From positions 1-42,569 of the forward strand of contig JAHJJU010000025.1 in the NCBI GenBank assembly GCA_018822805.1: a stretch of 42,569 nt of DNA, written 5' to 3'. Below the pieces are notes generated by a model, which was not told where the DNA came from, searched no databases, and saw only the letters and a list, made by a program, of their open reading frames with translations. Shown here in pieces: positions 3,557 through 34,026 of this stretch. Made by a program: the position numbers and the translations under genes. The DNA comes from a bacterium (GTDB lineage: Bacteria > Campylobacterota > Campylobacteria > Campylobacterales > Sulfurovaceae). Position 1 is the stretch's first letter. Each line of letters opens with the position of its first letter.

Positions 3557-3571
3557 TTAAAAGGAGTTAAA

Positions 3572-12733: not shown

Positions 12734-15700
12734 ATGAAAAATAAAATTTTGCTATTTCTAATAGTGATGTACTCTCTCTCTTTAAATGCTACAGAGTTAA
12801 AGAGGGAAGGATGGAATTTAATTTCTGTTTGTCAAGATACCAATAGAACGGATATTGATATGACAGGAGTTGAACAGATTCAGTCATTGGATGGAAAAAA
12901 TATTTATACAGGTGCATACGAAAGATATTCAAGTTTAAATACTCTAGTCGCTGGGTATGGTTATTGGATAAAAGGTAGTTTAGGTACAAATTTTAATAGT
13001 GGTGAGGCTTCTGGAAAATTAGAAATTTCTTTAAACAGAGAAGGCTGGAATATTATCGGAATGTGTGAAGAGAGATCACGAACCGATGTTAATATGACAG
13101 GTCTTGAGCAGATGCAATCTTTAGATGGAAAAAATATTTATACAGGTGCATATGAGAGATATTCTAGTTTAAATCTTTTAGAATCAGGGTATGCTTATTG
13201 GGTAAAAGGAACTCTTGGAACAACTTTTATTTCAAAAAATGGAATAAGTATTCCTAGTGCATACAGTTATCCTGTTTATACCAATGAATTAATAGGAGGA
13301 GAAAGGGTTAGTACATTCAGTGAACTGAATGGTTACATGATTAAATTTTTCTCTAATGAAGATGTAACTATTACTGGTCAAGAGTTACAAAAATCAATTA
13401 TTGTATCAATTAATGGTGAAGAAACATCAGAAATTCCAATGGCTTCAACCTATAAAGGTAAAAGTATTGTTGTTGCAGTTTACGATAGTGAAGAAAAATT
13501 GATTGCTGTTTCCGATGTTACAACTGTTTCGAATGATGATTTTCCATTGTTGATTCCTATGGTAATAGAGATGAATGATACGACAAACACTCCACCTATC
13601 TTAACCACCATCTCCAATCAAATTATGGCAGAAGGTGCTTCCACATTGGTTATTGAAGTAAACGCAACCGATGCAGATGATGACAATATTACTTTTGATG
13701 TAAACAGTTCAGATCCTGCAAGTGTAACGGCAAGTATTAATGGAAACCAACTTACATTAACACGACTAACTTCATCTGGTGGAACATTTACCATTACAGT
13801 AACAGCTACCGATGATAAAGGTGCAAGTGATACTAAAAGCTTTACCGTAACTTTACCAACCATAGTGATGGATACTGAAAATCCAATAGTCACATTAAAT
13901 GGTTCTGCCGAAGTCAATGTAACAGTAGGAGAAGTTTATACGGAATTAAATGCAACGGTAACAGATAATATTGATCATAATCTTACAGCCATAGTTACAG
14001 GAAGTGTCAATACAAGTAGTGTGGGTACCTATACGGTAACTTATACAGCAACCGATACAGCAGGAAATATTGGAACAGCTACGAGAACCATTCATGTAGT
14101 TGCAGCTCCAGTGATTGATACTGAAAATCCAATAGTCATATTAAATGGTTCTGCAGAAATCAATGTAACAGTAGGGGAAGTTTATACGGAATTAAATGCA
14201 ACGGTAACGGATAATATCGATTATAATCTTACAGCCGTAATTACAGGAAGTGTCAATACAAGTAGTGTGGGTATCTATACGGTAACTTATACAGTAACCG
14301 ATACAGCAGGAAATATTGGAACAGCTACGAGAACAGTTAATGTAGTGGCGTCAGTTGCTTCTTTTAACGATTTTAATGGTTATCTATACGTAGCCAATGA
14401 AGGACATGGAGGAGGTGGTGGAACAACCATTTTTAAAGTAGATGAAAATGGTACAGCTTCATTATTGGCAGATGGATTTAATGGACCTTCTGGTTTGGCA
14501 GTAGATGCATTGAGTCAAACACTGTATATTTCTGATGATAGAAATCAAGTTTATAGATTATTAGCAGATGGAAATCTATCGGTATTGCCTATAGATTCAA
14601 CCTATTTAAGTAATCCAAATGCTTTAGTCTTGGATTCTTATGGTTATTTATTAATTGCTAATGCAGGTTCAGGAACAATAGTCAGAGTAGACCCAAATAA
14701 TACAAGTGATATTCAAGTAATCGCTGAAGATTTTAATACACCACAAGCAGTTGAGATTTATGGTGACATGGCCTACTTTACAGACTTCTCAAATGATATT
14801 TATGAAGTCAATGTTAGTACTACTACAGCTGTAAATCCATCAAATTCTTTATATAAATCTATGAATGCTTACGTTAATGGTACACAAGGTGGTTTAGTAA
14901 GTGACTTTGCTGGTTCTCTTTATATCTCTAGTTATGAAACGGGAGAGGTATTTAAAGTTGACAGTAATCTAAATGTAACCACTGTGTATAGTAATCCAGG
15001 AAGTCAACCTAGAGGATTGCTGTATCTTGATGAGATGTTGTATGTAACTCTATACAATCAAGCCTCTGTTGCTAGAGTCAATACAAATACTTTAGCTACA
15101 GAAATTTTTTCAGATACTATTCCATTTAGTGGACCATTTGGTATCAGATACTCAAGTGTTAATTACCCAACATTTGATGCTACAAATCCTAATTCAGGAG
15201 GTACTAACGATGTTACGCTTCCAGTAGGATTTAACTATAGAGTGATTAACAATTTAGGTGAATATGTAAGTTCACAAGTTGATGGATATGAAATTCAACT
15301 TTATGCCAACTATATAGAAGGAGCCAATGACCAGTTAAATCATACAGGTGTGGTTACAAGACTTAATGGGGAGAATACACCTACTATTAATATTCAAAAT
15401 AGCTATAGAAGTCAGCAAATAGTAGCTGCTCTTTATGATTCAATAGGAAGATTGGTTTCTGTATCAATTCCAACGACAGTTGATGCAGTTGCCCCTATAA
15501 CAACTGTAGATTTAGTGTGGGATAATACGCCACAAAACAATGGATTTACTTTAACGGATGTTCAAAATAAAACATTTTATACAGTAACGCATAAAGATGG
15601 ACAACCTTCATTTAAATCAAAAGTAGAGTTTGCAGCAGATACACGAGCATTTTATACTTATGATGGTACATCCTATCAATTGCTAAATACAGTTGCTTAT

Positions 15701-17401
15701 GATGTTAATGACAGTGGTGTACTTCATGTGGCTGTACAGATTAATGGTGAAGAGTTGTATCTCTTTAAGAAAAATGGAACTTCTTCAGCTGTTATGATTA
15801 CTGATATGTTCTTAGGTTTAGGTCAAGCAACGTATTATGGTGAGCGACACTTTTTTGATTTGGAAGCAGATGCAGATGCTTATTTAAGTGGAAGTGGTGG
15901 CGATAATCAGCTTCCGACTATGAGTTTAAATCAAGATTATGTTCGTTTAAATATTGTTGATGGTTCAACAGCAGAAGTTCAAATTGATGCCAATGATACT
16001 GAAGATGGTACAGCTTTAACTTATGGAATAGAGTGTTACTCTTGTTTTGAAGATCAAGTGCCAAATTTTGTAACTTTAAATGGTACTACCATAACGGTTA
16101 GTCCTATTGCCGGAGATGAGGGTACTTATGATGTAACTGTTTATGTAGAAGACAGTGAAGGTGCACGGGATAATCAAAATCTTCATATAGAAGTGGTCTC
16201 AGAAACACCTGCTGTGAATATGGAGTTTTCTCATAATGTTGCAAGTGGTTCATACGATGCCAATGCAACAGTAGACCCTACCCCTATGGCCGGAACAGCA
16301 ATGTATGATTTACATTTTTCAACCTACAATAAGGGTAATGAACTTGAAGTAGAACGATTTACGATAAATACGTTAACCGTGGATATCTCAAAATTAAATT
16401 TAGATGACCCAAATAATCCAACATGGAGTACTCCTGAAAATATTCCTTATCTTTTAGATAATGGAGAGATGATTATTGATGAAGATGGTGATGGTGTAGA
16501 TGACTTTAAGATTAAATATGTTGGAGCGTTTAGTGATACGACGGTTTTAAATGAAATAGCAGGTTATGATATATTTGGTGCAGGTGTACAAGCGTATCGC
16601 TTTATCTATAAACAGTTACAAGACAAGATAAACTTTTATGATGAACAAAACTATGAGTATTCTCATGGAAATACAGCTAATGAGTTCTATTTATCTTTGG
16701 CAGAGTTCATCGAACATCAACAAGGTGGATCTTGGTTTATGTCCAAAGAGGGCAATGAAGGAGGCATTTCATTTGCTCAAGGGAGCAATGGAACAAGTGG
16801 TACACTTATAGAGGTTAATCAAAATGGTGACATCACAAATGCAAATGCCGGTACATGGGTAATTAATGCCGATAATATTTTGGTTGTCTCTCCAAATATG
16901 GAGTTGGGATACCATGCCGATGTATTTAAAGAGGTAAGTGTTGATTCAGAAACACGTATTGTACGTGGAGAGTATCAACGAGCAGGAGAAGAAGAGGAGT
17001 TCTTATGGTTTAATGAAGCAGGAAAAGATCAATTTTTAAATTTTGTATCTTCGTTTGCTAACTCCAATGGAGGTGGAACAGTATCCGATATTCCTCTTCC
17101 TAATGGGTTTGAATATTCTGTCATTAATAACCTTGGAACTGCTGTAGAAACAGAGATTGAGCTAGAAGGTAATTTATATACTCTACGGCTACATTCCAAT
17201 ATTGATATTGCTGCAAATGATCAAGCCAATCATGTAGGAATAATGATTTCTGTTAATGGGCAAAATGCTTTACTTCAAATTCAGAACAGTTATGAAACAC
17301 ATAATGTTGTCTTGGCTGTTTATGATAACAGTGGTCGGCGTGTAGCTGTTTCAGTAGAAACAACGGTGAATGGGAATACTCCAATTTCACTTACTTTCTA
17401 G
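12734..17401 (+). CDS. Large exported multidomain protein: GWNL pair, three INNxG modules, DUF5011 pair, NHL-like propeller
   Basis: 1555 residues with a cleavable signal peptide (about 1-19) followed directly by ATELKREGWNL. Visible order: two GWNL/YWVKG modules (about 22-165); INNxG module 1 (about 173-280); a cadherin-like domain (285-375); two DUF5011/HYR-type Ig-like domains (380-540); an NHL/SMP-30-like beta-propeller (about 545-815, blades such as GPSGLAVDALSQTLYISDD); INNxG module 2 (828-930); a region of unknown fold; an Ig-like domain (about 1055-1160); a region resembling the pre-terminal part of the giant lipoprotein; INNxG module 3 (1455-1555). There is no membrane anchor. AAGGA precedes the start. 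Probably co-transcribed with 12305. The role is likely binding or scaffolding at the cell surface; no catalytic motif is visible. Confidence 0.85.
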   Translation: MKNKILLFLIVMYSLSLNATELKREGWNLISVCQDTNRTDIDMTGVEQIQSLDGKNIYTGAYERYSSLNTLVAGYGYWIKGSLGTNFNSGEASGKLEISLNREGWNIIGMCEERSRTDVNMTGLEQMQSLDGKNIYTGAYERYSSLNLLESGYAYWVKGTLGTTFISKNGISIPSAYSYPVYTNELIGGERVSTFSELNGYMIKFFSNEDVTITGQELQKSIIVSINGEETSEIPMASTYKGKSIVVAVYDSEEKLIAVSDVTTVSNDDFPLLIPMVIEMNDTTNTPPILTTISNQIMAEGASTLVIEVNATDADDDNITFDVNSSDPASVTASINGNQLTLTRLTSSGGTFTITVTATDDKGASDTKSFTVTLPTIVMDTENPIVTLNGSAEVNVTVGEVYTELNATVTDNIDHNLTAIVTGSVNTSSVGTYTVTYTATDTAGNIGTATRTIHVVAAPVIDTENPIVILNGSAEINVTVGEVYTELNATVTDNIDYNLTAVITGSVNTSSVGIYTVTYTVTDTAGNIGTATRTVNVVASVASFNDFNGYLYVANEGHGGGGGTTIFKVDENGTASLLADGFNGPSGLAVDALSQTLYISDDRNQVYRLLADGNLSVLPIDSTYLSNPNALVLDSYGYLLIANAGSGTIVRVDPNNTSDIQVIAEDFNTPQAVEIYGDMAYFTDFSNDIYEVNVSTTTAVNPSNSLYKSMNAYVNGTQGGLVSDFAGSLYISSYETGEVFKVDSNLNVTTVYSNPGSQPRGLLYLDEMLYVTLYNQASVARVNTNTLATEIFSDTIPFSGPFGIRYSSVNYPTFDATNPNSGGTNDVTLPVGFNYRVINNLGEYVSSQVDGYEIQLYANYIEGANDQLNHTGVVTRLNGENTPTINIQNSYRSQQIVAALYDSIGRLVSVSIPTTVDAVAPITTVDLVWDNTPQNNGFTLTDVQNKTFYTVTHKDGQPSFKSKVEFAADTRAFYTYDGTSYQLLNTVAYDVNDSGVLHVAVQINGEELYLFKKNGTSSAVMITDMFLGLGQATYYGERHFFDLEADADAYLSGSGGDNQLPTMSLNQDYVRLNIVDGSTAEVQIDANDTEDGTALTYGIECYSCFEDQVPNFVTLNGTTITVSPIAGDEGTYDVTVYVEDSEGARDNQNLHIEVVSETPAVNMEFSHNVASGSYDANATVDPTPMAGTAMYDLHFSTYNKGNELEVERFTINTLTVDISKLNLDDPNNPTWSTPENIPYLLDNGEMIIDEDGDGVDDFKIKYVGAFSDTTVLNEIAGYDIFGAGVQAYRFIYKQLQDKINFYDEQNYEYSHGNTANEFYLSLAEFIEHQQGGSWFMSKEGNEGGISFAQGSNGTSGTLIEVNQNGDITNANAGTWVINADNILVVSPNMELGYHADVFKEVSVDSETRIVRGEYQRAGEEEEFLWFNEAGKDQFLNFVSSFANSNGGGTVSDIPLPNGFEYSVINNLGTAVETEIELEGNLYTLRLHSNIDIAANDQANHVGIMISVNGQNALLQIQNSYETHNVVLAVYDNSGRRVAVSVETTVNGNTPISLTF
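13871..14350 (+). repeat. Tandem 246-bp duplication encoding two DUF5011-type domains
   Basis: Copy 1 begins at 13871 and copy 2 at 14117 (offset 246 bp, 82 codons). They are nearly identical over most of their length, both starting GATACTGAAAATCCAATAGT. The products match the DTENPIVxLNGSA...TATDTAGNIGTATR pattern of DUF5011/HYR-like Ig domains. The DNA-level similarity indicates a recent in-frame duplication. Confidence 0.9.
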
Positions 17402-18357: not shown

Positions 18358-18470
18358 AGATTTCCTTTTAGTGATAAAATATTAAAAAAAGTTGATTTTT
18401 TCAATATAAATATTTTTTATTGTAGAGTTTATCTATTTATTACTAAAAGTCTTAAATATGTATAGCTTAG

Positions 18471-18482
18471 ATATGTTATTCT
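18471..18482 (+). promoter_or_regulatory. Shared upstream motif ATGTTATTCT, copy 1
   Basis: ATATGTTATTCT lies 27 bp upstream of the start at 18509. TGTTATTCT could be read as an extended -10 element (TGn-TATTCT). The motif recurs upstream of three other island genes. Promoter role is inferred. Confidence 0.4.
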
Positions 18483-18508
18483 TTGAAATTAAAAAAAGGA
18501 AGGTTCCC

Positions 18509-19369
18509 ATGAAAAAAACACTGCTATTAATCTCACTTATTTTTATGACACTATCAAGTACAGCCACGGAGTTAAAAAGGGATGGTTGGAATCTAATTTC
18601 TGTATGCCAAGACATGAATCGGTCTGATATTGACATGACAAATATAGAAGAGATACAGCGTCAAGATGGTCACACGATTTATACAGGAGCGTATGCCGAT
18701 TTTTCAAATCTTGATGCCTTAGCATCAGGGTACGGGTATTGGGTAAAGGGAGTTAAAGGAGTAAACTTTGCAAGTGGTGTGGCACAAAACAGATTGGAAA
18801 AGTCTCTTTTAAGAAATGGTTGGAACTTAATGGCATCTTGTGAAGATCGTGCAAAAGCCGACATAAATATGACAAATATAGAAGAGATACAGAGTCAAAA
18901 CGGTGATACTATTTATACCGGAGTTTATGCTGATTTTTCAAATCTTGATGGCTTAGTATCAGGGTATGGTTACTGGGTCAAAGGTGATGCTGGAACACTT
19001 TTCAATGCTTATCGAGGTAATGGTAGTTGTACTGAAGTAACAGACACGTTTCCAAATTTTATAATAGCCAAAGACAACATGTTAAAAGATGTCTCAAAAC
19101 TTTTTAACGGCTTCACCGTTACTGCCACAACAGACAGTGAAGTAGCAGAGACTTCCATGAGTACCAATGCCTTTTATGGAATTGTAGATGGAGCGAGTAC
19201 CAATGCTTTATTAAAACTAAACTCAAACTATAGTAATGGTAGTCGGTTTGTGGTCAAGGTTTATCGTGCCGGTACGTTGGTTGGAATTGGGACAGAAAAA
19301 GTTTTTGATGTTGCAAGTATCAGTATTGATTTTGGAGTGATAGATAATTTGAGTTGTGGAGGGGAGTAG
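18509..19369 (+). CDS. Exported GWNL-module protein with a diverged C-terminal INNxG-like domain
   Basis: 286 residues from the ATG at 18509. I prefer this start to an upstream in-frame ATG at 18458 because GGAAGG sits just before it and the product then begins with a normal signal peptide (MKKTLLLISLIFMTLSSTA). Two tandem GWNL modules follow (about 20-90 and 92-163). Each has the pattern GWNLxxxC, then DIxMTNIEEIQ, then YTGxYADFSNLDxL and YGYWVKG. The C-terminal 110 residues contain two cysteines (Cys near GNGSC and LSCGGE). They follow the strand order of INNxG modules only loosely (FNGFTVTATTDSEVAET, then VVKVYRAGTLVGIGTE). It is the shortest GWNL protein in the window and so shows the core architecture. 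No enzymatic motif is seen. Confidence 0.82.
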   Translation: MKKTLLLISLIFMTLSSTATELKRDGWNLISVCQDMNRSDIDMTNIEEIQRQDGHTIYTGAYADFSNLDALASGYGYWVKGVKGVNFASGVAQNRLEKSLLRNGWNLMASCEDRAKADINMTNIEEIQSQNGDTIYTGVYADFSNLDGLVSGYGYWVKGDAGTLFNAYRGNGSCTEVTDTFPNFIIAKDNMLKDVSKLFNGFTVTATTDSEVAETSMSTNAFYGIVDGASTNALLKLNSNYSNGSRFVVKVYRAGTLVGIGTEKVFDVASISIDFGVIDNLSCGGE

Positions 19370-19979: not shown

Positions 19980-20007
19980 CACTTAAGTAAATTTGGAGAC
20001 AATTGTT

Positions 20008-23000
20008 ATGAAAAAGGGATTATTAGTAGTATTATTAATTATGACGACACTGTTTGGAAATGCGACAGAGTTACAAAGAAGTGGTTGGAATCTTATATCT
20101 GTTTGTGAAGATATGAATAGAAGCCAAGTTGATATGAATGGAATAGAAGAGATACAGAGCCAAAATGGTGAGACCATTTATACGGGAGATTTTGCAGCTT
20201 ATTCTAATTTAAATACCTTACAAGCAGGGTATGGTTATTGGGTAAAAGGTGAAGTGGGTATAAGTTTTAATTCAGGGGAATCTCGAAATAGATTGGAGAG
20301 ACCACTAAATAGAAATGGTTGGAATCTTATGGCATCTTGTGAGGAAATTCCAAGAGCCGATATTAACATGACACACTTTGTAGAGCTTCAAAGTCAAAAT
20401 GGTCATACTATTTACACAGGAGCTTTTGAAGCTTATTCAAATTTAGATACTTTAGAGGCAGGGTATGGATATTGGGTTAAAGGAAATCAAGGAGTACTGT
20501 TTACTTCAAAAAGAGGTTTAAGTATACCAGTTGGATTTGATTATCAGACCATTAACAATTTAGGTACGATTATTGAAACAAACTATGAAGCTTATGTTGT
20601 TAAAGTATATGCAAATTATCAAGAAGTGGCAGATGATCAACAGAATCATACAGGGATAGGTATTACTGTTAATGGAAACAGCCTACCTATTATACAGATT
20701 CAAGGAACCTATAAAGGTCATGAAATAGTGGTAGCTCTCTATAATTCTTTGGGTAAATTGGTAGCTGTTTCTGATAATATCACTGTTGACAGTATTGCAC
20801 CGGTTACTTTGATTGAATTGGTGATAGAAGATCCGTACAATGATGGAGGAGGAACTGATCCGTATAATCCTGAAGGGGGAACTGATCCGTATAACTCTGG
20901 AGGAGTTGATCCATATAATCCTGGAGGGGGCACCGATCCATATAATCCTGAAGGGGGAACTGATCCGTATAACCCTGGAGGAGTGGATCCATATAATCCT
21001 GGAGGAGTTGATCCATATAACCCAGGAGGGGGAACCGATCCGTATAGGGGTAATGGTTTATTAATCACAACACCACTTTATAGTGACGATAGTAATATTA
21101 TCGTGAAAGTACAAGGTAATAGTGGAGATGTATTAATTGTTAATGGTATGGAGACAAATTACACGTTTACCAGTGATTACCAAGTTTTAGATGTCTCTTT
21201 AGAGAATAATAGTAGTATTGTTTATAATTTACAATTACAAAAGAGTGATGGAACATTGAGTGAAACAGAAAGTTTCCAAGTTTCTGATGACCTTTATACA
21301 GGATTACTAAATAAGGACTTAACGAATAAATCTATATCAGTACATAGAGATAGTGCATACGCCCAATACTATACCTTTAATATTGAGGATGAAAGAAATG
21401 TAACCATAGATTTAATGTCAAGTTTTGATACCTATTTATATCTATTAGAAGGTAATGGAAGAGATGGAAATGTAATTGAGTCGGATGATGATGGTGGTGA
21501 AGGATATAATTCTCGTATTAATAGGGTATTGCCTGTAGGTGACTATACGATAGAGGTGACAAGTTTTTCTCAATATACAGAGGGTTTGTTTGATTTAACT
21601 CTCTCTCCAATGGTAGATCCATATTCAAGTTTGAGAAACAAATTGGCAGGAAAGACCTATTATTTACCATACGAAGATGAAAATGGAACGAAGGTGATTA
21701 CCGAGTTAAATTTTGATAATAATCTTTCAACTTTAATTTGGCAAGAAGTAGAGGGAGGAAGTTCAGGAGGAACAAGTCAGATAACATTTGATTATACTGA
21801 GTCTGAAGGTAACAGATTGATTTTTGACGGAGAGATAAATTTTTCTATCGACCTATATGCTAATGATAATAATGAAACTCAACCATTAAATGCTTATATT
21901 TATCGAAATTATTATAATGGTTCTAATATTGATTTACCAGAAGGTGCATTTAAACTCTTTGGTAGTCAAGAAGAGGTACATACCTATTTAAGTACGCTAC
22001 TTGCAGGTAACACATACTATATCCCAAATTATTCTGAAAATAGAATAGATGAAGTGGTATTTAATGAAGGGTTTACGACTATTACTAGTGGAACAACCGA
22101 TTCAATAGTCGCTTTTGGGGACAGACTCTATATGGAAGCAAATGGAGTAATGATACTTCGCTACGTCAGTGATGATTATATGTACTTTGATTATCAAGGT
22201 TTAAATGAGCATAATCAAACGGTATATGAAACTATAGAAACATATACCAATAGAGATAATGCTCAAGAACAGTTGGATTATTATAATTCACAACCACATA
22301 TTTATCTTTCTGAAAATAATGTTAACATGAATGCAGGTGAAGTTAGAACCATTGCTTATAGCACAAGAAATCTAGACACTATTCGATTAGAGAATGCACC
22401 AGATTTTATAACGCTTGATGAGACAAATAACAGCATTATAATTGATACAACAAATGTGCAGTATAGTCAATCATTTGATATGTATTTGGTTGGAATAGAT
22501 AATGAAACAGGTTATGAAATATCGGAGTATTTATATGTTTATGTTTATGTTGACGAAGCAAGCAGATTAAGAAACAAACTGGCAGGAAAGACCTATTACT
22601 TACCTTATGTAGATGAGAATGGAACGAAAGTTATTAGAGAGTTAACATTTGATGATAATCTTTCAACTATAAATTGGCAAGATGTTGAGGGAGCTAATGC
22701 TAGTGGTACGACAGATATAAGAATTGAAGGAAGTAACCTTGTTTATGATGATGTAATGAACTTTTCTATTGACTTATATGGAGATTCTACTCAGCCTCTA
22801 AATGTATATATCTATACTTATTATAATGATGGTAATCTTACTTTGACATTTCCAGAAGGACAATTTATACTCTTTGCTAGTCAAGAAGAGGTATATAGTT
22901 ATTTAGGTACATTACTGGCTGGTCAGACATTGTATATTCCAAATTATTCTGAAAATAGAATAGATGAAATGGTGTTTAATGAAGAGTTTAGCAGTATTAC

Positions 23001-23517
23001 CAGAGAAACAACAGAGACAATAGCCACTTTTGGAGATAGATTGTATATTGGGGCGAATGAGGTTATAATACTTCGGTATGTTGATAGTGATTCTATGTAC
23101 TTTGACTATGAAAATTTAGATGATAATAATCAAACCATACATAATGGAATACAAACTTATCGTGATAGAGATAGTGCACAGCTACAGTTGGATAATTATA
23201 ATGCATCAGCACATATTTATTTTGATGAAAACAATATCAATATGAATGTAGGCGAAGTCAGAACCATTGCTTATACCACAAGAAATGTGGATACGCTTCG
23301 ATTGGAGTATGCACCTGATTTTGTAACACTTGATGAGACAAATCAAAGTATAACGATAGATGCCAGAACTTTAGAATATAGTGAAAGTTTTTTTATTCAA
23401 GTTGTAGGAACAGATAATACAACATATAATCAAACATGGAGTTATGTTTGGGTTAATATTACTGGTAATGAATCAGACCCTTATGCAAATGATGGAGTTG
23501 ACCCTTATAATCCTTAA
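20008..23517 (+). CDS. Exported GWNL/INNxG protein with DPYNP linker, PPC domain and duplicated LAG-TYY units
   Basis: 1169 residues from the ATG at 20008, preceded by GGAGAC at suitable spacing; the frame is open from a TTG at 19993. A signal peptide precedes ATELQRSGWNL. Order: two GWNL modules (about 20-165); an INNxG module (168-273); a DPYNP-rich linker (275-346); a sheet-like segment (LLITTPLYSDDSNI, 350-428); a pre-peptidase C-terminal (PPC) domain (about 430-535, FDTYLYLLEGNG and ESDDDGGEGYNSR). Then comes a 312-residue unit duplicated in tandem, each copy containing two LAGxTxYxP subunits (LAGKTYYLP, LAGNTYYIPNYSENRIDE). The protein ends in another DPYxx repeat, with no anchor. The segment plus PPC domain recurs in the DGR target at 27632. 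A binding or scaffold role is likely; it has no catalytic signature. Confidence 0.83.
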   Translation: MKKGLLVVLLIMTTLFGNATELQRSGWNLISVCEDMNRSQVDMNGIEEIQSQNGETIYTGDFAAYSNLNTLQAGYGYWVKGEVGISFNSGESRNRLERPLNRNGWNLMASCEEIPRADINMTHFVELQSQNGHTIYTGAFEAYSNLDTLEAGYGYWVKGNQGVLFTSKRGLSIPVGFDYQTINNLGTIIETNYEAYVVKVYANYQEVADDQQNHTGIGITVNGNSLPIIQIQGTYKGHEIVVALYNSLGKLVAVSDNITVDSIAPVTLIELVIEDPYNDGGGTDPYNPEGGTDPYNSGGVDPYNPGGGTDPYNPEGGTDPYNPGGVDPYNPGGVDPYNPGGGTDPYRGNGLLITTPLYSDDSNIIVKVQGNSGDVLIVNGMETNYTFTSDYQVLDVSLENNSSIVYNLQLQKSDGTLSETESFQVSDDLYTGLLNKDLTNKSISVHRDSAYAQYYTFNIEDERNVTIDLMSSFDTYLYLLEGNGRDGNVIESDDDGGEGYNSRINRVLPVGDYTIEVTSFSQYTEGLFDLTLSPMVDPYSSLRNKLAGKTYYLPYEDENGTKVITELNFDNNLSTLIWQEVEGGSSGGTSQITFDYTESEGNRLIFDGEINFSIDLYANDNNETQPLNAYIYRNYYNGSNIDLPEGAFKLFGSQEEVHTYLSTLLAGNTYYIPNYSENRIDEVVFNEGFTTITSGTTDSIVAFGDRLYMEANGVMILRYVSDDYMYFDYQGLNEHNQTVYETIETYTNRDNAQEQLDYYNSQPHIYLSENNVNMNAGEVRTIAYSTRNLDTIRLENAPDFITLDETNNSIIIDTTNVQYSQSFDMYLVGIDNETGYEISEYLYVYVYVDEASRLRNKLAGKTYYLPYVDENGTKVIRELTFDDNLSTINWQDVEGANASGTTDIRIEGSNLVYDDVMNFSIDLYGDSTQPLNVYIYTYYNDGNLTLTFPEGQFILFASQEEVYSYLGTLLAGQTLYIPNYSENRIDEMVFNEEFSSITRETTETIATFGDRLYIGANEVIILRYVDSDSMYFDYENLDDNNQTIHNGIQTYRDRDSAQLQLDNYNASAHIYFDENNINMNVGEVRTIAYTTRNVDTLRLEYAPDFVTLDETNQSITIDARTLEYSESFFIQVVGTDNTTYNQTWSYVWVNITGNESDPYANDGVDPYNP
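20830..21045 (+). repeat. GG(T/V)DPYNP tandem linker repeat
   Basis: Nine DPY-containing units of 8 or 9 residues (24 or 27 bp) in tandem, alternating GGVDPYNP and GGGTDPYNPE types. All units keep the reading frame. A similar DPYxNDGVDPYNP motif forms the extreme C-terminus of the same protein (23480-23517). Confidence 0.93.
21631..23470 (+). repeat. Tandem 936-bp internal duplication
   Basis: Copy 1 begins near 21631 and copy 2 near 22567. Both begin LRNKLAGKTYYLP and run through NYSENRIDE, the FDY-type segment, and NxGEVRTIAY. They are still recognisable at the DNA level but are more diverged than the other duplications in the island. Confidence 0.8.
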
Positions 23518-25409: not shown

Positions 25410-27416
25410 GTGAAACACTTCTCTATTATATTTTTTTTCTTGTTTGCCGGTACATTCGTTTTAGAAGCCACTCAGTTAAAACGGACAGGTTGGAATCTTA
25501 TGGCTGTTTGTCAAGATATCTCTAGGGCAGACATCAATATGACCGGTATTGAGGAGATTCAAAGTCAAGAAGGACAATCTATCTATACAGGAGATTTTGC
25601 AAGTTATTCCAATTTAGAGACTTTACATGCCGGGTACGGATATTGGGTTAAAGGTGAAGTGGGCACTGTTTTTAATTCAGGAGAGTCTCTCAATAGATTA
25701 GAAAAACCATTAAATAGAGATGGTTGGAACCTCATGGCTTCATGTGAAAACATTTCAAGTACTGATGTGAATATGACATATCTTGAAGAGATACAGCGTC
25801 AAGACGGTGCAACCATTTATACAGGAGATTTTTCCAATTATTCTAATTTAAACAGTTTAGATTTTGGCTATGGGTATTGGATAAAAGGTGTTCAAGGAAC
25901 ACTCTTTACGTCCAACAGAGCATTAAGCACACTCCCTCCTATTGATAATAATGGAACAACTGGGACTCCACCTACGAATGAAAAGGTTTCTATCTCCGGA
26001 AAAGTAACTTATGATCGAATCCATGTAAACAGTAACCATATAGGTTTAGACTATAACAATATAACTCAAGAAAATGCACGGCAGGTTGTTGTTGAAGCAA
26101 TCGATATCAATAACAGTGTAGTAGCCACAACCACAACAGATGATAATGGTGAGTATCTTTTAGCAAATCTTCCAAACAATCAGAATATTAAAATTCGTGT
26201 TTATGCAAAAATGTTTAAAAACGCTACATGGGATGTAAAAGTCATTGACAACTACAATAATGGTGTACTTTATGTCATCGAAGGAAATATGGAAACAACG
26301 GGTTCAAACAACAGTATTCGAAATCTTACTGCTTCTTCAAGTAACAAAAGTTCACCTCCCTTTGCGATACTCGATTCGGTTTATACTGCGATGCAAAAAG
26401 TTTACTCTGTGGACAGTAGCGTTGTCTTCCCTGCACTAAAAATGAACTGGTCTGTTAATAATATAGAGAGTGGTACCTATTATGATGGTATTGACAACAT
26501 CATGTTACAGGGTGATCAAAATGGAGACAGTGATGAGTATGATGACCATGTCGTCACGCATGAATGGGGTCACTACTATGAAGATAAATTTTCACGAACG
26601 GATAGCATTGGTGGTGCACATGGTGCTGGAGATCATTTAGACATTCGTGTAGCATTTGGTGAAGGATTTGGTAATGCCATGTCAGCCATCGTAAGCGATG
26701 ACCCAATCTATTTTGATACTTTTAGCTACAGTGGCTCATCAAATGGATGGTACATGAACATCGAGAGTGAGACCAAAGATAACCCAGGTTGGTTTAGTGA
26801 AGCTTCCATTCAACGTATTTTATATGACCTTTATGACAGTGATGATGATGGAGAAGATCAGCTCTCTTTAGGTTTTTCAGCACTACACGATGTGTTTATT
26901 GACGCTCAAAAAAACACCGAAGCATTTACCAGTATATTTTCATTTATTACGGAGTTTAAATTGGCAAATCCAGATGAAAGTGCAATGGTTGACAGTATGG
27001 TCTCATCTGAAAATATGGCGACCATTACTGATAGTTATGGATCGGGACGCAGCAATCTTGTAAGTGAAACCCCGTTGTATACAGACTTAACCGTGGGTGA
27101 AATGGTTAATGTCTGTACTAAAAATGGTTATGGAAGTTATAATAAGTTAAACAACCGAAAATACATTAAGTTTATTGTCTCCAACAGTGCACGTTATACC
27201 ATTAGCGTAGCACAAAGTAATGGTACTGATAGTGACCCTGATTTTCAAGTTTATAAAGCATCTCCACATACCTATATGGGAAGTGCTAAGAGTCCTGATA
27301 TAGGAGTCGAAGAGACAACTTTAAATTTAACCACAGGTTCGTATCTGCTGGATATTTCAGATGACAATAATATTGCAGCACCTTGTTTTAATGTGACGGT
27401 GAATAGTGTAAATTAA
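25410..27416 (+). CDS. Exported zinc metalloprotease with N-terminal GWNL module pair
   Basis: 668 residues, GTG start (AAAGG 7 bp upstream). Signal peptide (1-20), then two GWNL modules (about 21-166). A carboxypeptidase-regulatory-like Ig domain follows (about 193-266, DDNGEYLLANLP), then a protease domain. It contains HEWGH at 384-388 (Glu385 as general base) and GEGFGN at 417-422, where Glu418 is the likely third zinc ligand, giving a gluzincin-type arrangement of HExxH plus Glu about 30 residues later. The C-terminal part (about 560-668) is a beta-rich PPC-like domain (KYIKFIVSNSARYTISVA). It is the only protein here with a clear catalytic site, and it shows that the GWNL pair can be fused to an enzyme. 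Substrate unknown; no partner lipoprotein gene lies next to it. Confidence 0.85.
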   Translation: MKHFSIIFFFLFAGTFVLEATQLKRTGWNLMAVCQDISRADINMTGIEEIQSQEGQSIYTGDFASYSNLETLHAGYGYWVKGEVGTVFNSGESLNRLEKPLNRDGWNLMASCENISSTDVNMTYLEEIQRQDGATIYTGDFSNYSNLNSLDFGYGYWIKGVQGTLFTSNRALSTLPPIDNNGTTGTPPTNEKVSISGKVTYDRIHVNSNHIGLDYNNITQENARQVVVEAIDINNSVVATTTTDDNGEYLLANLPNNQNIKIRVYAKMFKNATWDVKVIDNYNNGVLYVIEGNMETTGSNNSIRNLTASSSNKSSPPFAILDSVYTAMQKVYSVDSSVVFPALKMNWSVNNIESGTYYDGIDNIMLQGDQNGDSDEYDDHVVTHEWGHYYEDKFSRTDSIGGAHGAGDHLDIRVAFGEGFGNAMSAIVSDDPIYFDTFSYSGSSNGWYMNIESETKDNPGWFSEASIQRILYDLYDSDDDGEDQLSLGFSALHDVFIDAQKNTEAFTSIFSFITEFKLANPDESAMVDSMVSSENMATITDSYGSGRSNLVSETPLYTDLTVGEMVNVCTKNGYGSYNKLNNRKYIKFIVSNSARYTISVAQSNGTDSDPDFQVYKASPHTYMGSAKSPDIGVEETTLNLTTGSYLLDISDDNNIAAPCFNVTVNSVN

Positions 27417-27631: not shown

Positions 27632-30600
27632 ATGTATCGTCAACGCTTTAAATTATTGTTGTTGGTAGTGTTGTTTATTGGAACAACACTATTTGGAAAT
27701 GCTACGGAACTGAAACGAACAGGTTGGAATCTTATTGCTGTTTGTCAAGATATATCTAGGGCAGATATAAATATGACAGGTATAGATGAAATTCAAAGCC
27801 AAGATGGACAAACCATTTATACAGGAGCCTTTGCAGCGTATTCTAATTTAGAAACATTAGAAGCAGGATATGCTTATTGGGTTAAGGGAACGGCAGGAGA
27901 CAGTTTTGAGAGTGGTCATGCAAAAAATAGATTGACCGTTTCTTTGCGTAGAACGGGTTGGAATCTTTTGGGTTCTTGTGAAAACATTTCTAGAACTGAC
28001 ATTAACATGACAAACTTCAGTGAAATGCAAAACCAAGATGGACAAACTCAATATACTGGAGCCTTTGAAGCTTATTCAAACTTAGATGGATTAGAGTTGG
28101 GTGTGGGCTATTGGGTAAAAGGAGAGATGGGAACAGCGTTTGTTTCTAAACGGGGATTAACGCTTCCCATCGGTTTTGATTATCAGACGATTAACAATAG
28201 TGGTGATACTGTTGAGACAATGCATAATGGCTATAATGTTAGGCTTTATGCTGATTATAATGAAACAGCCAATGATCAATCTAATCATGTAGGTATTGTG
28301 GTGAGGGTTAATGGTAGCAATAGCCCTTTAATGATGGTTCAAGGAACGTATCAAACTCATGCTTTGGTAGTAGGTATTTATGATGTAAATGGTAGTTTAG
28401 TTGGGGTTTCTGATGCAATAATTATTAATGGGAATACTTTCATTGATGTGACAACAATTGCAGATAATTTATCTCCAACACCTCCAACCCTAACAACCAC
28501 TCCACCAACTACCACCACAGACAGCAACACAACCGTCGAAGTCAACGGAGAAGTAGGCAGTGCTGTTTATGTCAATGGAGTAGAGGTGGCAACAGTAGGT
28601 GCTGATGGTCGAGTGTTGGTAACATTAAACCTAAACACAGGAGACAATAACTTTAGCATTACGCTTAGAGATGCACAAGGTAATGAGAGTTCGGCGTTGA
28701 GTTTTGTGGTGCTTAGAAATGCAACAAATCAAGCACCTGCATTTGATGTTAATTCTATGAGTTCTATGTTTGAAACACATACTATTTCGACCGATGTAAG
28801 TGATGCTCGGGCAGTCTATTCTATAGATATGGACAGTGATGGAGATATAGATGTATTGGCTATAGCTTATAATAGAGTCTTATGGTATGAAAATAATGGA
28901 ACATCAAGTTTTGAAGAGCATATGATTAGTGAAACTATTACAGGGGCTAATTCTATTCAAGCCAAAGACATAGATTCTGATGGCGATATAGATGTATCTA
29001 TTACAGCAGAGGATTCAGTTTTATGGTATGAGAATAATGGAAGTCAGAGTTTTATTGAACGTAATATATCGGTGAATGCATATGGTGCCAATTCTATACA
29101 AGTTGAAGACATAGATGCTGATGGAGATATAGATATTGTCGCTACAGCAGATAATAGAGTGATATGGTATGAAAATAGTGGAACTCAAAACTTTGTTGAA
29201 CATAATTTATCGGTCAATGCATATGGTGCTAATTCGGTTAAAGCAATTGATATAGACAGTGATGGAGATAAAGATATTGTAGCATTGACGTATAATGATG
29301 ATAAGATTTTATGGTATGAAAATAATGGAACAACATCTTTCTTAGAGCATAGTATATCAACCAGTTTAAATGGATTAACAGCACTAGATGTAGGGGATAT
29401 TAATAGAGATGGATATATTGACCTTGTAGTAGGATCAGATGGTAGTCCTGATGCTGTTATTTTGTTTATAAATGATGGAAATCAAAGTTTTAGTGCTATA
29501 ACAGTTGCAAACATAGAAGCAGAGTCTGTAAAATTAGCTGATGTTAATGGTGATGGTTTTATGGATATTGTTACAGCAGAAGATGATAATGATAGAGTTT
29601 TTTGGTATGAAAATAATGGAACAGAAGTATTTACTGAACATCTTATTGCTGAAAATGTTTATGGAGCTATTTCCGTAAGTGTAAATGATATAAATAGAGA
29701 TGGAAGAGTTGATATTCTTTCAGCTTCTGCAAATGATAATACCATTGCATGGTATGGAGTGACAAAAGGTTTCAATACTCCAGAAAACAATAGCAGTATA
29801 GGAAGCATAACAGCCACAGACCCAGATGGTGATAGTTTAACCTACAGTTTATCAGGAGAAGATGCAGCACTCTTTAGTATTAATAGTACAACAGGAGCAT
29901 TAAGTTTTATAGGCGTACCAAACTTTGAAAACCCTACAGATAGTAATGGTGATAATGCTTATAGTATTACCATATCAGTAACAGATGGAACACAAACGGT
30001 GAGTCAAGGGATTGTGGTTAATATTGAAGACAGACCAGATGTTAGACCTACATTGAGTCATTCAACCTTTTCAGTTGTAGAAAACACATTAGAAAATTAT
30101 CGTCTAGGTCAAGTATATACAAATAGTAACGGTGACAGTGATATAACGTCCTTTAGACTTGAAGGAGATGCAAACTTTGATATAGATAACAGTGGTTATA
30201 TCTATGTGGCAAGTGGAGCAGAGATAGATTATGAGACCACAACATCGTATGCATTAAGAGCGTATGCGTCTAATGACGCAGGAGAGAGTGATGGAGTAGA
30301 TATCAATATTTCTGTATTGGACATAAATAAACCCATACTGCTCACAACTCCTATTTACAGTAATGAGAGTAACATTACCTTTGGGGTTCAAGGTGATGAT
30401 GGAGATTTATTGGTGATTAATGGGGTGGAAAGTAGTACAGTATTGGGTAGCAGTGCTGTAGAAGTGACACTCGAACGAGATGGAAGCAGTGTTTATCTGT
30501 TGCAATTAAAACATGCAGACGGAACGCTAAGTGAGTCGGTAAGCTTTGAGATTTTTGATACCTTGGATATTGTCTTGAATGACCAAAATATTACAGAGTT

Positions 30601-31723
30601 CATTGCTTCAACACAAAGAAGTGGTAAGTATGCAAGATATTATACTTTCCAAACAAATGATGAACGAAATATTACAGTCAATATGACAGCATCTTTTGAT
30701 ACCTATCTTTATTTGTTGGATGAAAATGGAAGTAGGTTGTATAGCGATGATGATGGAGGAGATGGATACAACTCTAAATTAGAAGAGCTTCTTTTACCAG
30801 CAGGTAATTATACCATTGAAGCAACAACTTTTAGTAATGCTACAGTAGGAACTTTTGATTTAAACATTACAGACAATAGAGTAGACAACAATGACACCAC
30901 CCTACCATCAGTCCCAACCCTAACAACCACTCCACCAACTACCACCACAGACAGCAACACAACCGTCGAAGTCAATGGTGAAATAGGCAGTGCTGTTTAT
31001 GTCAATGGAGTAGAGGTGGCAACAGTGGGGGCTGATGGTCGAGTGTTGGTAACATTAAACCTAAACACAGGAGACAATAACTTTAGCATTACGCTTAGAG
31101 ATGCACAAGGTAATGAGAGTTTGGCGTTGAGTTTTTCTATAAATCGAGAAGAGACAGTTGTGGCTACCTCTTCTGTGAAAAAAACAGGACAAACCATAAG
31201 TTATGATGAAAGTGGAAACGAAGTAGCTGACGGCACACAAAGAGATGATGGTCACTACCAAAAAGGAACCACCTCAAGCTACACACGAGATGACGACAAT
31301 GAGGTGGTAACCGATAACCTAACAGGACTCATGTGGCAAGATGATGCTGCCGTGGCATCGGTACAAAAACAGTGGTTAACGGATGCCAACTATGATACAT
31401 GTCGCAACAATACAAGTGACCCAGCCTGTTTTGACACCACAGGCGATACAGCAACCACCTATTGTGATGAGCTGGTCATGGGTGGGTTTGAAGATTGGAG
31501 GTTGCCAACACGTAAAGAGTTACAAGGTTTAGCTGACTATGGACGATATTCCCCTGCCATCAATAGTACTTTTGTAAATACTATGTCTGACTATTACTGG
31601 TCGTCGACTACCTATGCTAACCGTAGTAACCTTGCGTGGAGCGTCTATTTCTATAGTGGTAATCAGAACTACGACGGTAAGGGCAATGGCTATTATGTTC
31701 GGTGTGTTAGAGCAGGACAGTAG
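27632..31723 (+). CDS. DGR target protein 1: exported multidomain protein with variable C-terminal DUF1566/Lcl domain
   Basis: 1363 residues with a signal peptide (about 1-24, ending FGNA). Order: two GWNL modules (25-170); an INNxG module (178-278); a TTPPTTTTDSNTT linker plus sheet domain (285-358); seven VCBS/FG-GAP repeats (about 370-710, DxDxDGDxD calcium motifs and WYENNGT), likely a seven-bladed propeller; two cadherin-like domains (715-885); a LLTTPIYS segment with a PPC domain (about 900-1080); a second copy of the linker domain (1095-1168); a C-terminal DUF1566/Lcl domain (1190-1363) with LTGLMWQDD, EDWRLPTRKEL and YYWSSTTYAN. The last 46 codons are VR1, a mutated copy of the template repeat at 32215. 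The variable residues lie in the region that in known DGR targets forms an exposed binding face. Probable surface or secreted receptor or adhesin. Confidence 0.92.
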   Translation: MYRQRFKLLLLVVLFIGTTLFGNATELKRTGWNLIAVCQDISRADINMTGIDEIQSQDGQTIYTGAFAAYSNLETLEAGYAYWVKGTAGDSFESGHAKNRLTVSLRRTGWNLLGSCENISRTDINMTNFSEMQNQDGQTQYTGAFEAYSNLDGLELGVGYWVKGEMGTAFVSKRGLTLPIGFDYQTINNSGDTVETMHNGYNVRLYADYNETANDQSNHVGIVVRVNGSNSPLMMVQGTYQTHALVVGIYDVNGSLVGVSDAIIINGNTFIDVTTIADNLSPTPPTLTTTPPTTTTDSNTTVEVNGEVGSAVYVNGVEVATVGADGRVLVTLNLNTGDNNFSITLRDAQGNESSALSFVVLRNATNQAPAFDVNSMSSMFETHTISTDVSDARAVYSIDMDSDGDIDVLAIAYNRVLWYENNGTSSFEEHMISETITGANSIQAKDIDSDGDIDVSITAEDSVLWYENNGSQSFIERNISVNAYGANSIQVEDIDADGDIDIVATADNRVIWYENSGTQNFVEHNLSVNAYGANSVKAIDIDSDGDKDIVALTYNDDKILWYENNGTTSFLEHSISTSLNGLTALDVGDINRDGYIDLVVGSDGSPDAVILFINDGNQSFSAITVANIEAESVKLADVNGDGFMDIVTAEDDNDRVFWYENNGTEVFTEHLIAENVYGAISVSVNDINRDGRVDILSASANDNTIAWYGVTKGFNTPENNSSIGSITATDPDGDSLTYSLSGEDAALFSINSTTGALSFIGVPNFENPTDSNGDNAYSITISVTDGTQTVSQGIVVNIEDRPDVRPTLSHSTFSVVENTLENYRLGQVYTNSNGDSDITSFRLEGDANFDIDNSGYIYVASGAEIDYETTTSYALRAYASNDAGESDGVDINISVLDINKPILLTTPIYSNESNITFGVQGDDGDLLVINGVESSTVLGSSAVEVTLERDGSSVYLLQLKHADGTLSESVSFEIFDTLDIVLNDQNITEFIASTQRSGKYARYYTFQTNDERNITVNMTASFDTYLYLLDENGSRLYSDDDGGDGYNSKLEELLLPAGNYTIEATTFSNATVGTFDLNITDNRVDNNDTTLPSVPTLTTTPPTTTTDSNTTVEVNGEIGSAVYVNGVEVATVGADGRVLVTLNLNTGDNNFSITLRDAQGNESLALSFSINREETVVATSSVKKTGQTISYDESGNEVADGTQRDDGHYQKGTTSSYTRDDDNEVVTDNLTGLMWQDDAAVASVQKQWLTDANYDTCRNNTSDPACFDTTGDTATTYCDELVMGGFEDWRLPTRKELQGLADYGRYSPAINSTFVNTMSDYYWSSTTYANRSNLAWSVYFYSGNQNYDGKGNGYYVRCVRAGQ
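28484..28705 (+). repeat. 222-bp direct repeat, copy A
   Basis: Matches 30914-31135 (offset 2430 bp) with six mismatches in 222 bp by my count. It encodes the TTPPTTTTDSNTTVEVNGE linker plus a beta-rich domain. It is richer in C than the flanking sequence. Confidence 0.95.
30914..31135 (+). repeat. 222-bp direct repeat, copy B
   Basis: Second copy of the repeat at 28484-28705. It lies directly before the DUF1566/Lcl domain that carries VR1, so the repeat brackets the propeller, cadherin and PPC part of the gene. Confidence 0.95.
31585..31723 (+). repeat. DGR variable repeat VR1
   Basis: An ungapped alignment to TR (VR1 position + 630 = TR position) over 139 bp gives 20 mismatches. Eighteen are at TR adenines (to G, T or C). 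The two others are 31606 T-to-G (silent, Ser) and 31718 G-to-C near the 3' end. The last bases before the stop, GTGTTAGAGCAGGACAG, form the likely IMH site. Sequence upstream of 31585 does not match TR, so this is the 5' edge of homing. Confidence 0.95.
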
Positions 31724-31748
31724 CAGTTTTGATTTTTGAAAGAGAACA

Positions 31749-32099
31749 ATGAATCAGAATTTACCAATATTTAAATCGGCATTAGACCTTTGTGTCTATA
31801 TTGATACCATTGTTAAGAACCAAGAGAAGTATCATAAATATGGTATCGGTTCTGAATTAAGAGCATCTACAAGAGAGATGTTCTATTTTGTCTCTAAGGC
31901 AAATAGTAATAAAGAGAATAGAGTGCTGTTGTTGCAAAAACTTATAGAAAAATGTGAAGAGACCAAAGCTATTTTATACCTTGCCAAAGAGATAAAGGCG
32001 TTTAAAAGCTTTAAGCAGTTTGAACATGGTTCAATGTTGACCGTAAATGTTTGTAGACAAGCACAAGCATGGCTAAATTCTGCCCGAGTATCTAAATGA
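31749..32099 (+). CDS. avd: DGR accessory variability determinant (Avd-like four-helix protein)
   Basis: 116 residues, predicted almost wholly helical and Lys/Glu-rich. Four helices are visible: FKSALDLCVYIDTIVKNQEKY; GIGSELRASTREMFYFVSKA; RVLLLQKLIEKCEETKAILY followed by LAKEIKAF; and the C-terminal MLTVNVCRQAQAWLNSA. The order and the Y(H/K)KYGIGSELR turn fit the four-helix-bundle/S23-like family to which DGR Avd proteins belong. Avd forms a pentameric barrel that binds the RT and the TR RNA (known from the Bordetella phage system). It lies 25 bp after the VR1 stop and upstream of TR, the usual DGR order. By similarity alone the family call would be moderate; context makes it strong. Confidence 0.88.
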   Translation: MNQNLPIFKSALDLCVYIDTIVKNQEKYHKYGIGSELRASTREMFYFVSKANSNKENRVLLLQKLIEKCEETKAILYLAKEIKAFKSFKQFEHGSMLTVNVCRQAQAWLNSARVSK

Positions 32100-32214
32100 A
32101 TGGTTCTTTAGATAGTGTGCAACTTTACTGTGTGGTGTTCTTGCCAAAGTGCATAGAAGTCTATATTTGTGGCATTTCTGCAAACAATAGCATAAATAGA
32201 ACACTTATTTTTGC

Positions 32215-32353
32215 GTCTAACAATTACTGGTCGTCTACTACCTATGCTAACAATAGTAACAATGCGTGGAACGTCAATTTCAATAGTGGTAATCAGAACA
32301 ACAACAATAAGAACAATAACAATTATGTTCGGTGTGTTAGAGCAGGAGAGTAG
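32215..32353 (+). ncRNA. DGR template repeat (TR)
   Basis: A 139-bp template that matches VR1 (31585) and VR2 (33811). It has about 52 adenines, 22 of them in the AAC/AAT-rich segment 32291-32327, so the encoded pattern is Asn-rich at the variable positions, as in other DGR templates. Its 3' end has GGAGAG where both VRs have GGACAG, which marks the IMH*/IMH difference. The transcribed region probably extends through 32100-32463, the 364-bp gap between avd and the RT. I see no other gene there. An open frame from 32096 to 32353 runs through TR but has no RBS or upstream homology. Confidence 0.95.
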
Positions 32354-32371
32354 GGTGCAATTCATTGCACC
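32354..32371 (+). other. Hairpin directly after TR
   Basis: A perfect 7-bp stem, GGTGCAA and TTGCACC, with loop TTCA, begins at the base after the TR stop triplet. A slightly imperfect version (TGCAA/TTGCA, same loop) lies at 33970-33983, about 20 bp after VR2. DGR targets often have a short hairpin downstream of the IMH site that aids homing. None is seen after VR1. Confidence 0.6.
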
Positions 32372-32463
32372 ACAAAAACAAGATTTTTGAATGGAAACGG
32401 AATTTGGGTTTGAACATTTAAATACGGTGCAATTCAATACACCAAAAAAAGAAAGAAGAAAAA

Positions 32464-33564
32464 ATGTTTTCATTTCAAAATATATACAAAGCCTATATGG
32501 CATGTAGAAAAACAAAACGAAATACCTTCAATCAACTACTATTTGAGCGTGATTTGATAACAAATCTTTGGAATTTACAGTATGAACTTTCAACCTACAA
32601 TTACAAGATAGGACGTTCACTCTGTTTTTTGACCTCTTCACCCAAACTTAGAGAGGTTTTTGCTGCAGATTTTAGAGACCGAGTGGTGCATCATATTTTG
32701 GTCAATGAGCTAGAGCCTCTCTTTGAGAGAAAGTTCATACATGATGTCTATAATAATCGTCAAAAAAGAGGTACACATCAAGCTGTAAAACAAGCCAAAA
32801 GGTACATGAACCAAACACTTAAAGGATATTACTTACAACTTGACATAAAAGGTTTTTTCTATAATCTGAACAAGATGATACTTTTTGATAAAATTAAAAA
32901 AGAGGTCATAGGTTCAGACTTAGATGTCTCATCGGTACTTTATTTGACTAACAAAATACTCTTTCATGACCCAACTAGAGATTATCATTTTAAAGGAGAT
33001 AGGTCAAAACTGACACTTTTACCTGAACATAAAACACTTTTTAAGATACCAAAAAGTAGAGGACTTCCCATAGGAAACTTGACAAGTCAATTCTTTGCCA
33101 ATGTTTACATGAATGACTTTGACAATTTTGTAAAACGAAAATTAAAGGTAAAAAGATACATTCGTTATGTTGATGATTTTGTACTTTTTGATGAGCGTAA
33201 AGAGAGATTGGCGATGCTAAAAGTAGAGATAGAAAACTACTTAAGTACAGAGCTTCATTTGACGCTTCGAGAAGACAGTAAACTTAAACGACATAGTGAA
33301 GGCTTGGACTTTTTGGGTTATATCATTCGCCCTAACTACACACTAGTACGTCAAAGAGTGGTCAATAATTTTAAGAAGAAAAAGGCTACTTATTTAAGAA
33401 ACTATGAAAGCCAAAAGGGAAAAATGAGTCGTGAAGAGATAAAAAATTTTTTGTCTGTTCAAGCTTCATTTGTGTCGCATAATAAACACGCAAACAGCTT
33501 TAATTTAATGAACAAGGTAGGAAAATTAGATGAGAACAATCCTTTTGATTATGATAGGACTTAG
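32464..33564 (+). CDS. DGR reverse transcriptase
   Basis: 366 residues. It copies TR RNA into adenine-mutagenised cDNA that replaces the VRs. Motifs: LDIKGFF (Asp127, first catalytic Asp), GLPIGNLTSQFFAN at 200-213 (the IGNLTSQ form is the DGR signature, in place of the GxPQGG seen in group II introns), YVDDF at 235-239 (catalytic Asp237 and Asp238), and LDFLGYII at 281-288. It lacks maturase and endonuclease domains, so it is not an intron protein. An A/G-rich leader precedes the ATG. The C-terminal 35 bp of the gene overlap the start of the second target gene, so the RT and target 2 are translated from one message. Confidence 0.95.
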   Translation: MFSFQNIYKAYMACRKTKRNTFNQLLFERDLITNLWNLQYELSTYNYKIGRSLCFLTSSPKLREVFAADFRDRVVHHILVNELEPLFERKFIHDVYNNRQKRGTHQAVKQAKRYMNQTLKGYYLQLDIKGFFYNLNKMILFDKIKKEVIGSDLDVSSVLYLTNKILFHDPTRDYHFKGDRSKLTLLPEHKTLFKIPKSRGLPIGNLTSQFFANVYMNDFDNFVKRKLKVKRYIRYVDDFVLFDERKERLAMLKVEIENYLSTELHLTLREDSKLKRHSEGLDFLGYIIRPNYTLVRQRVVNNFKKKKATYLRNYESQKGKMSREEIKNFLSVQASFVSHNKHANSFNLMNKVGKLDENNPFDYDRT

Positions 33565-33949
33565 TAGCCTTTTAACAGCAGATTTTACAAGAGATGCCAA
33601 TGGCATAGTAACAGACAGTACAACAGGTTTAGCGTGGCAAGACGATAGTATAGGCAGTCAAATGAATTGGCAATCTGCCATAGATAATTGTGAAGCTTTA
33701 ACTCTAGGAGGTCATGAAGACTGGCGACTACCTAACCTAAATGAACTGACTTCATTGGTCGATGACAGAGAGTATAATCCAAGCATAGATGATGTTTTTC
33801 AGAACACTGCGTCTAACTATTACTGGTCGTCTACTACCTATGCTAACTATAGTTACTATGCGTGGTGCGTCTATTTCTCTAGTGGTCTTCAGGGCAACAG
33901 CTATAAGAGCCATAACAATTATGTTCGGTGTGTTAGAGCAGGACAGTAG
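33530..33949 (+). CDS. DGR target protein 2: small exported DUF1566/Lcl-domain protein
   Basis: 139 residues: a short signal peptide (MRTILLIMIGLSSLLTA) followed by a complete single DUF1566/Lcl domain. Its family marks are VTDSTTGLAWQDD, GGHEDWRLPNLNELTSLVD and NYYWSSTTYAN, the same as in the last 170 residues of target 1. The final 46 codons are VR2. The start lies inside the RT gene (35-bp overlap), with GGTAGGA as a plausible RBS. The product is essentially a free, soluble or periplasmic version of the diversified domain without the family's other modules. Its TGxxWQDD and WRLP cores are intact. Confidence 0.92.
   Translation: MRTILLIMIGLSSLLTADFTRDANGIVTDSTTGLAWQDDSIGSQMNWQSAIDNCEALTLGGHEDWRLPNLNELTSLVDDREYNPSIDDVFQNTASNYYWSSTTYANYSYYAWCVYFSSGLQGNSYKSHNNYVRCVRAGQ
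33811..33949 (+). repeat. DGR variable repeat VR2
   Basis: An ungapped alignment to TR (VR2 position minus 1596 = TR position) gives 18 mismatches over 139 bp. Seventeen are at TR adenines, and the last is 33944 G-to-C, the same change as in VR1. Eight adenine positions are altered in both VR1 and VR2, not always to the same base. Homology extends three bases further 5' than in VR1. Confidence 0.95.
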
Positions 33950-33966
33950 ATTTTTGATTTTTGGTA

Positions 33967-34026
33967 GGATGCAATTCATTGCACCACAAAAACAAGGTTT
34001 TTGAATGGGAATGGAATTTTGGGTTT
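33967..34026 (+). repeat. Copy of the TR downstream flank behind VR2
   Basis: About 60 bp starting at the hairpin (GCAATTCATTGCACCAC) match 32355-32412 with few mismatches and one indel, after which the two diverge with a further partial match near CACGGTGCA (34046) and TACGGTGCA (32424). The shared region goes beyond the stop codon and IMH site, so TR and VR2 descend from a duplication larger than the template itself. Confidence 0.85.

Follow-up and report, generated by a model that had tools for sequence, protein, structure and literature searches.

The window analysed here (the whole stretch of 42,569 nt from a Sulfurovaceae genome) almost certainly holds a complete cellular diversity-generating retroelement (DGR) with two Lcl_C targets. 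An earlier note, made from the same DNA, had claimed a complete DGR with two target genes in a Campylobacterota-like surface island, and our analysis found every part of it, in the claimed order on the plus strand: target gene 1 with VR1, an Avd-type gene, TR, the reverse transcriptase (RT) gene, and target gene 2 with VR2. The features are, in window coordinates:

27632–31723, plus strand: target gene 1, a 1363-aa secreted/surface protein with FG-GAP, cadherin and Ig-like repeats (Pfam FG-GAP_3, 2.9e-53)
~31304–31711, plus strand: C-terminal Lcl_C domain of target 1 (Pfam Lcl_C, 1.7e-31)
31585–31723, plus strand: VR1, whose end is the stop codon of target 1
31724–31739, plus strand: 3' flank of VR1, CAGTTTTGATTTTTGA, with the TTTGAY motif found after many VRs of the clade
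31749–32099, plus strand: Avd-type accessory gene, 116 aa (PHROG 3206 'Avd protein of DGR', 6.4e-13; Pfam bAvd, 1.5e-7, under the cut-off)
32212–32353, plus strand: TR, A-rich, with 18 AAY codons
32348, plus strand: base discriminating TR (G) from VR1 and VR2 (C)
32354–32463, plus strand: TR–RT spacer, 110 bp, with a REP-type palindrome, GGTGCAAT-TC-ATTGCACC, at 32354–32371 that is dispersed in the genome
32464–33564, plus strand: DGR reverse transcriptase, 366 aa
33530–33949, plus strand: target gene 2, 139 aa, with a signal-peptide-like N-terminus and one Lcl_C domain (Pfam, 1.4e-35)
33808–33949, plus strand: VR2
33950–33984, plus strand: 3' flank of VR2, ATTTTTGATTTTTGG (TTTGAY motif), then a second REP-type palindrome

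The start of target gene 2 overlaps the end of the RT gene by 35 nt, and Pfam places an Lcl_C domain at the C-terminal end of both targets, each ending in its VR. Elsewhere in the window, the same surface island encodes, at 3572–12244, a lipoprotein-like protein of 2890 aa with many tandem-95 repeats. Five window proteins (12734–17401, 18458–19369, 19993–23517, 25410–27416 and 27632–31723) have in common an N-terminal ELKRxGWNLIxVCQ...GYGYWVKG repeat pair, a part without Pfam match; only the last of the five has a VR at its end.

Adenine-directed changes and the reverse transcriptase

We compared 139-bp segments of TR (32215–32353), VR1 (31585–31723) and VR2 (33811–33949). TR and VR1 disagree at 20 of the 139 positions, 18 of them among the 52 template adenines and 2 among the 87 other sites (Fisher, 2.3e-7), and TR and VR2 at 18, with 17 of the 52 adenines and 1 of the 87 other sites changed (Fisher, 1.1e-7). 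This alignment reproduces exactly the mismatch counts claimed before (18 of 20 in VR1 and 17 of 18 in VR2 on adenines), with Fisher values of about 1e-7 each. The bias runs one way only: with either VR in the role of 'template', adenines carry none of the mismatches. At non-adenine sites VR1 has a silent T>G, and both VRs have G>C at TR position 32348; the homology between TR and VR2 runs 3 nt further in the 5' direction (to 32212 and 33808, respectively). Sorted by codon, 35 of 72 adenines in AAY codons are changed compared with 0 of 32 adenines elsewhere (both VRs; p 8e-8), the codons with unchanged adenines including those for Tyr, Thr, Ser, Lys, Gln and Arg. An adenine change in an AAY codon cannot yield a stop. 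Many unchanged codons specify residues that are conserved in the family, and so the absence of change at non-AAY adenines is likely due to selection for folded proteins.

A search of the whole genome with an A-tolerant pattern returned three copies only (TR, VR1 and VR2), the reversed control pattern gave 0 matches, and no remote VR was found by this genome-wide search. Lcl_C domains are common in the genome (8 matches); its other Lcl_C genes were ruled out as targets, as there is no TR-like DNA inside them. On contig C89 of this genome (L093:4301–7671), two adjoining Lcl_C genes, one resembling target 1 and the other target 2, have no RT or TR with them and may be an old cassette that was stripped. 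That Lcl_C genes are this numerous, with one pair among them lacking an RT, would fit a reading of the three repeats as the ends of ordinary Lcl_C paralogues that gene conversion holds alike, with the RT an unrelated neighbour. The one-directional adenine bias already refutes this; moreover, in the window and its relatives the mismatched sites are nearly all A in the copy between Avd and RT, and the RT belongs to the DGR clade (see below), leaving the paralogue explanation with practically no probability.

The IGNLTSQ and YVDD motifs that the earlier note had read in the RT are present and intact. The RT matches PHROG 1423 at 1.2e-91, and its best solved relative is the RT of 8ub7 (E 5e-37), well ahead of group II RTs; we take the 8ub7 series to be the BPP-1 RT–Avd–RNA complex. 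We built a tree that included RTs from phage and plasmid loci, several of these loci being annotated with avd genes and SUMF1-type targets. In it the window RT and 18 other Campylobacterota RTs form one clade of 19 (support 100/100); this clade groups with DGR RTs, and two further RTs of the window's genome fall elsewhere. The fork between DGR RTs and the rest has support 93/81 and some tree rows are long, so the DGR placement is less firm than the clade itself. The assignment to DGR RTs made earlier is supported both by the tree, where the RT falls among annotated DGR RTs, and by the top solved match. PADLOC and NCBIfam also returned matches to DRT and group II models (those of NCBIfam all under cut-offs), as would be expected of an antiviral or group II-type enzyme, but the PHROG match, the top rank of 8ub7 and the position in the tree away from the genome's two other RTs make such an identity extremely improbable.

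The Avd-type protein has the PHROG match listed above, yet it stays under the curated Pfam and NCBIfam cut-offs, and a profile search with the Avd alignment turned up no relative of solved structure. A viral origin of the element was rejected: a search of IMG/VR with the window RT found no relative, and phage relatives among the matches listed are about 40% identical or less.

Predicted target fold and mechanism

An AlphaFold model of target 2 (mean pLDDT 79) has as its best fold match the Lcl C-terminal domain of Legionella pneumophila (PDB 8q4e; Z 13.6, 111 residues aligned, 26% identity), followed by C-type lectins; we therefore predict that the VR protein adopts the Legionella Lcl type of C-type-lectin fold. 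The domain here ends in a VR; on whether Legionella Lcl is a DGR target the fold match is silent. The Bordetella phage BPP-1 system (mtd-avd-TR-brt; PMC3240598) has in common with the window element the order VR, Avd, TR, RT, the adenine-specific change, a VR forming the C-terminus of a protein with the C-type-lectin fold, and TR and VR 3' ends that differ. Unlike BPP-1, the element here is cellular rather than phage-borne, has a second target after the RT, and carries Lcl_C in place of Mtd.

By analogy with BPP-1, TR would be transcribed into a TR RNA, from which the RT, together with the Avd-type protein, would make cDNA with template adenines copied at random. Priming of the cDNA, recognition of the 3' address and integration may proceed as in BPP-1, the cDNA taking the place of the VR with which either target gene ends. 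In both secreted Lcl_C domains this would rewrite the loops that are exposed and keep the scaffold, and the targets might act, displayed or secreted, as adhesins or as proteins that bind variable partners.

Related loci, spacer insertions and decayed cassettes

RT relatives were gathered from public genomes and from searches of the family and the order, where an RT match at 1e-50 was seen in 12 of 175 family genomes and in 9 of 399 genomes sampled from the order (the window's genome being in both). Wherever both flanks are present (~17 related loci), the layout is target 1 with a C-terminal Lcl_C domain, Avd, TR, RT and a small Lcl_C target 2, with a single exception, L079, in which TR precedes Avd. 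The adenine signature claimed for the window holds among these relatives as well, recurring in about 19 loci. Pooled over the clade loci without L044, mismatches occur at 537 of 1423 A sites (38%) and at 15 of 2562 other sites (0.6%), a contrast that describes the set and is no independent test, because the segments were picked by a scan favouring adenine mismatches. The same cassette was seen on contigs labelled Patescibacteria and Helicobacter pylori (L046 and L059), labels that are likely binning or labelling errors. Other genomes of the same genus hold a second, distantly related type of DGR with an LGNLTSQ RT (L034 and L033); in L034 a TR at 2685–2798 is accompanied by two VRs, at 600–713 and 3548–3661.

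According to PMC6642488, several VRs occur in 28.6% of DGRs and DUF1566 is the commonest Pfam domain of the targets. DGRs with DUF1566 (Lcl_C) targets and multiple VRs, as presented in PMC6642488 and PMC4159848, resemble the window element in target family and multi-target design and differ from it in that here two targets flank the cassette, in a layout fixed clade-wide; we found no Campylobacterota example in the text searched. Delta- and Epsilonproteobacteria together make up 2.6% of the DGR set of PMC3521204, and among the papers searched none was found that names a Sulfurovum, Sulfurimonas or Campylobacterota DGR of such kind, though supplements of large surveys may list some. The window element adds a cellular member to a known kind of DGR, on a branch that is little described.

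The nearest relative, L044 (genome G169), has an RT 79% identical to that of the window. The backbones of the window VRs match their own TR at 82–83 of 83 non-A core sites while the L044 copies differ from the window TR at 10–11 of 84 non-A sites, and we infer from this comparison of sequences that both VRs have probably been rewritten since the split from the L044 lineage. Of the earlier description of the element as recently active, probable rewriting after that split is what stands, and recency is only partly shown.

L044 itself has four copies of the repeat: a TR site (7692–7833), VR1 (7018–7152), VR2 (9349–9483) and a remote VR3 that closes an otherwise different gene on a separate contig (L118, ~5347–5487 from its start; G169:C36:8514–8654, reverse strand). 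Thirty of the 32 variable sites among these copies fall on A of the window TR (p 4e-11). At the 32 sites the L044 template site has A at 11 and the VRs at 10, 14 and 15; in intact loci TR has A at 87–100% of the variable sites. An A-rich copy was searched for in the L044 genome and none was found. The simplest reading of these sequences suggests that the L044 template was replaced by mutagenised cDNA, or by a VR via gene conversion, resulting in a burnt-out template; alternatively, the mutagenised site could be an assembly error or the template could be missing from the assembly, the listed contamination of this genome being 10%. We found no description of template self-destruction as the end of a DGR in the literature searched. 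The same genome holds a second, intact DGR, at L079:6133–8620. Another end state is represented by L061 (402–2512), a fossil cassette in which both Lcl_C targets are kept, Avd and RT are only remnants with most of the RT gone, and TR is absent.

The palindrome after the window TR is a REP-type repeat that occurs in many places of the genome, some of them on contigs that also carry RAYT-type transposase genes. In L047 and L058 a Y1_Tnp gene with palindromic repeats lies between TR and RT, in inserts of 0.9–1.2 kb (RAYT-type Y1_Tnp regions at L047:5124–6056 and L058:6793–8649), and REP/RAYT elements thus insert repeatedly between TR and RT in the clade. The RT of L058 holds in-frame repeats, GCDALASPMTRLKQEYI, that are REP-derived in look.

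In many related loci TR almost touches the RT start, so a REP palindrome in the window's 110-bp spacer could impair TR-RNA function. On this account the DGR, though intact in its anatomy and recent in its signature, might have been silenced not long ago, for instance by the REP insertion parting TR from RT, and relatives that are silenced or stripped do exist (L044 with its mutagenised template site, L061 without TR and most of the RT). At the same time, L047 and L058 still show clean adenine-only changes in their VRs despite far larger inserts, which indicates that the TR–RT spacer tolerates insertions, and in the window the RT and Avd frames are open and the VR backbones match TR as given above. 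We consider silencing unlikely, though it deserves more weight than the other alternatives to a working two-target DGR.

A candidate target address and its meaning for the clade

In BPP-1 (PMC3240598), a target is recognised only if it has an IMH at the VR end and, no more than 24 bp further on, a hairpin. Whereas TR and VR of BPP-1 are told apart by a 21-bp element, the 3' ends in the window differ essentially by one base, C in both VRs and G in TR, and no consistent hairpin directly follows the VRs, but a TTTGAY motif does. In sequence tails counted by eye, with Fisher's test for the comparison, a C directly follows the last common GGA (or equivalent) in 34 of 40 clade VRs and in 0 of 22 clade TRs, the exceptions among the VRs being L044 VR1, the remote L044 VR3, L050 VR2, both L090 VRs and L091 VR1. 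TTTGAY, a motif picked after inspection of the tails, is present in the 35 nt near or after the ends of 24 of 42 VRs, 0 of 22 TRs and 6 of 145 other long reading frames at the same loci. These counts overstate independence, as the loci are related and the flanks of VR1 and VR2 may have a common ancestry; taken together, the C base and TTTGAY are a candidate for the target address.

A hairpin just downstream is absent after VR1, and the REP palindrome after VR2 is also found after TR. We rejected the dispersed hairpin GGTGCAATTCATTGCACC as a DGR cruciform on the same grounds, since it is a genome-wide REP-type repeat. Across loci, hairpins are weakly enriched after VR2 relative to TR (p 0.03), which terminators could explain, and hairpins after VRs are in general less consistent.

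Tentatively, and with rather more doubt than conviction, we propose a Campylobacterota DGR lineage with a fixed two-target cassette, whose targets are marked by a single C plus TTTGAY rather than by a BPP-1-type hairpin, and whose members can come to an end by overwriting their own template with mutated cDNA, as L044 appears to show. The comparison across about 20 loci is of wider interest than the window alone, and it yields a testable address candidate and what may be a case of template self-destruction. Bacteria use DGRs to diversify proteins in a targeted way and on a very large scale; in this cellular lineage, which is conserved among Sulfurovum- to Sulfurimonas-like bacteria, one template would diversify two secreted lectin-like proteins.
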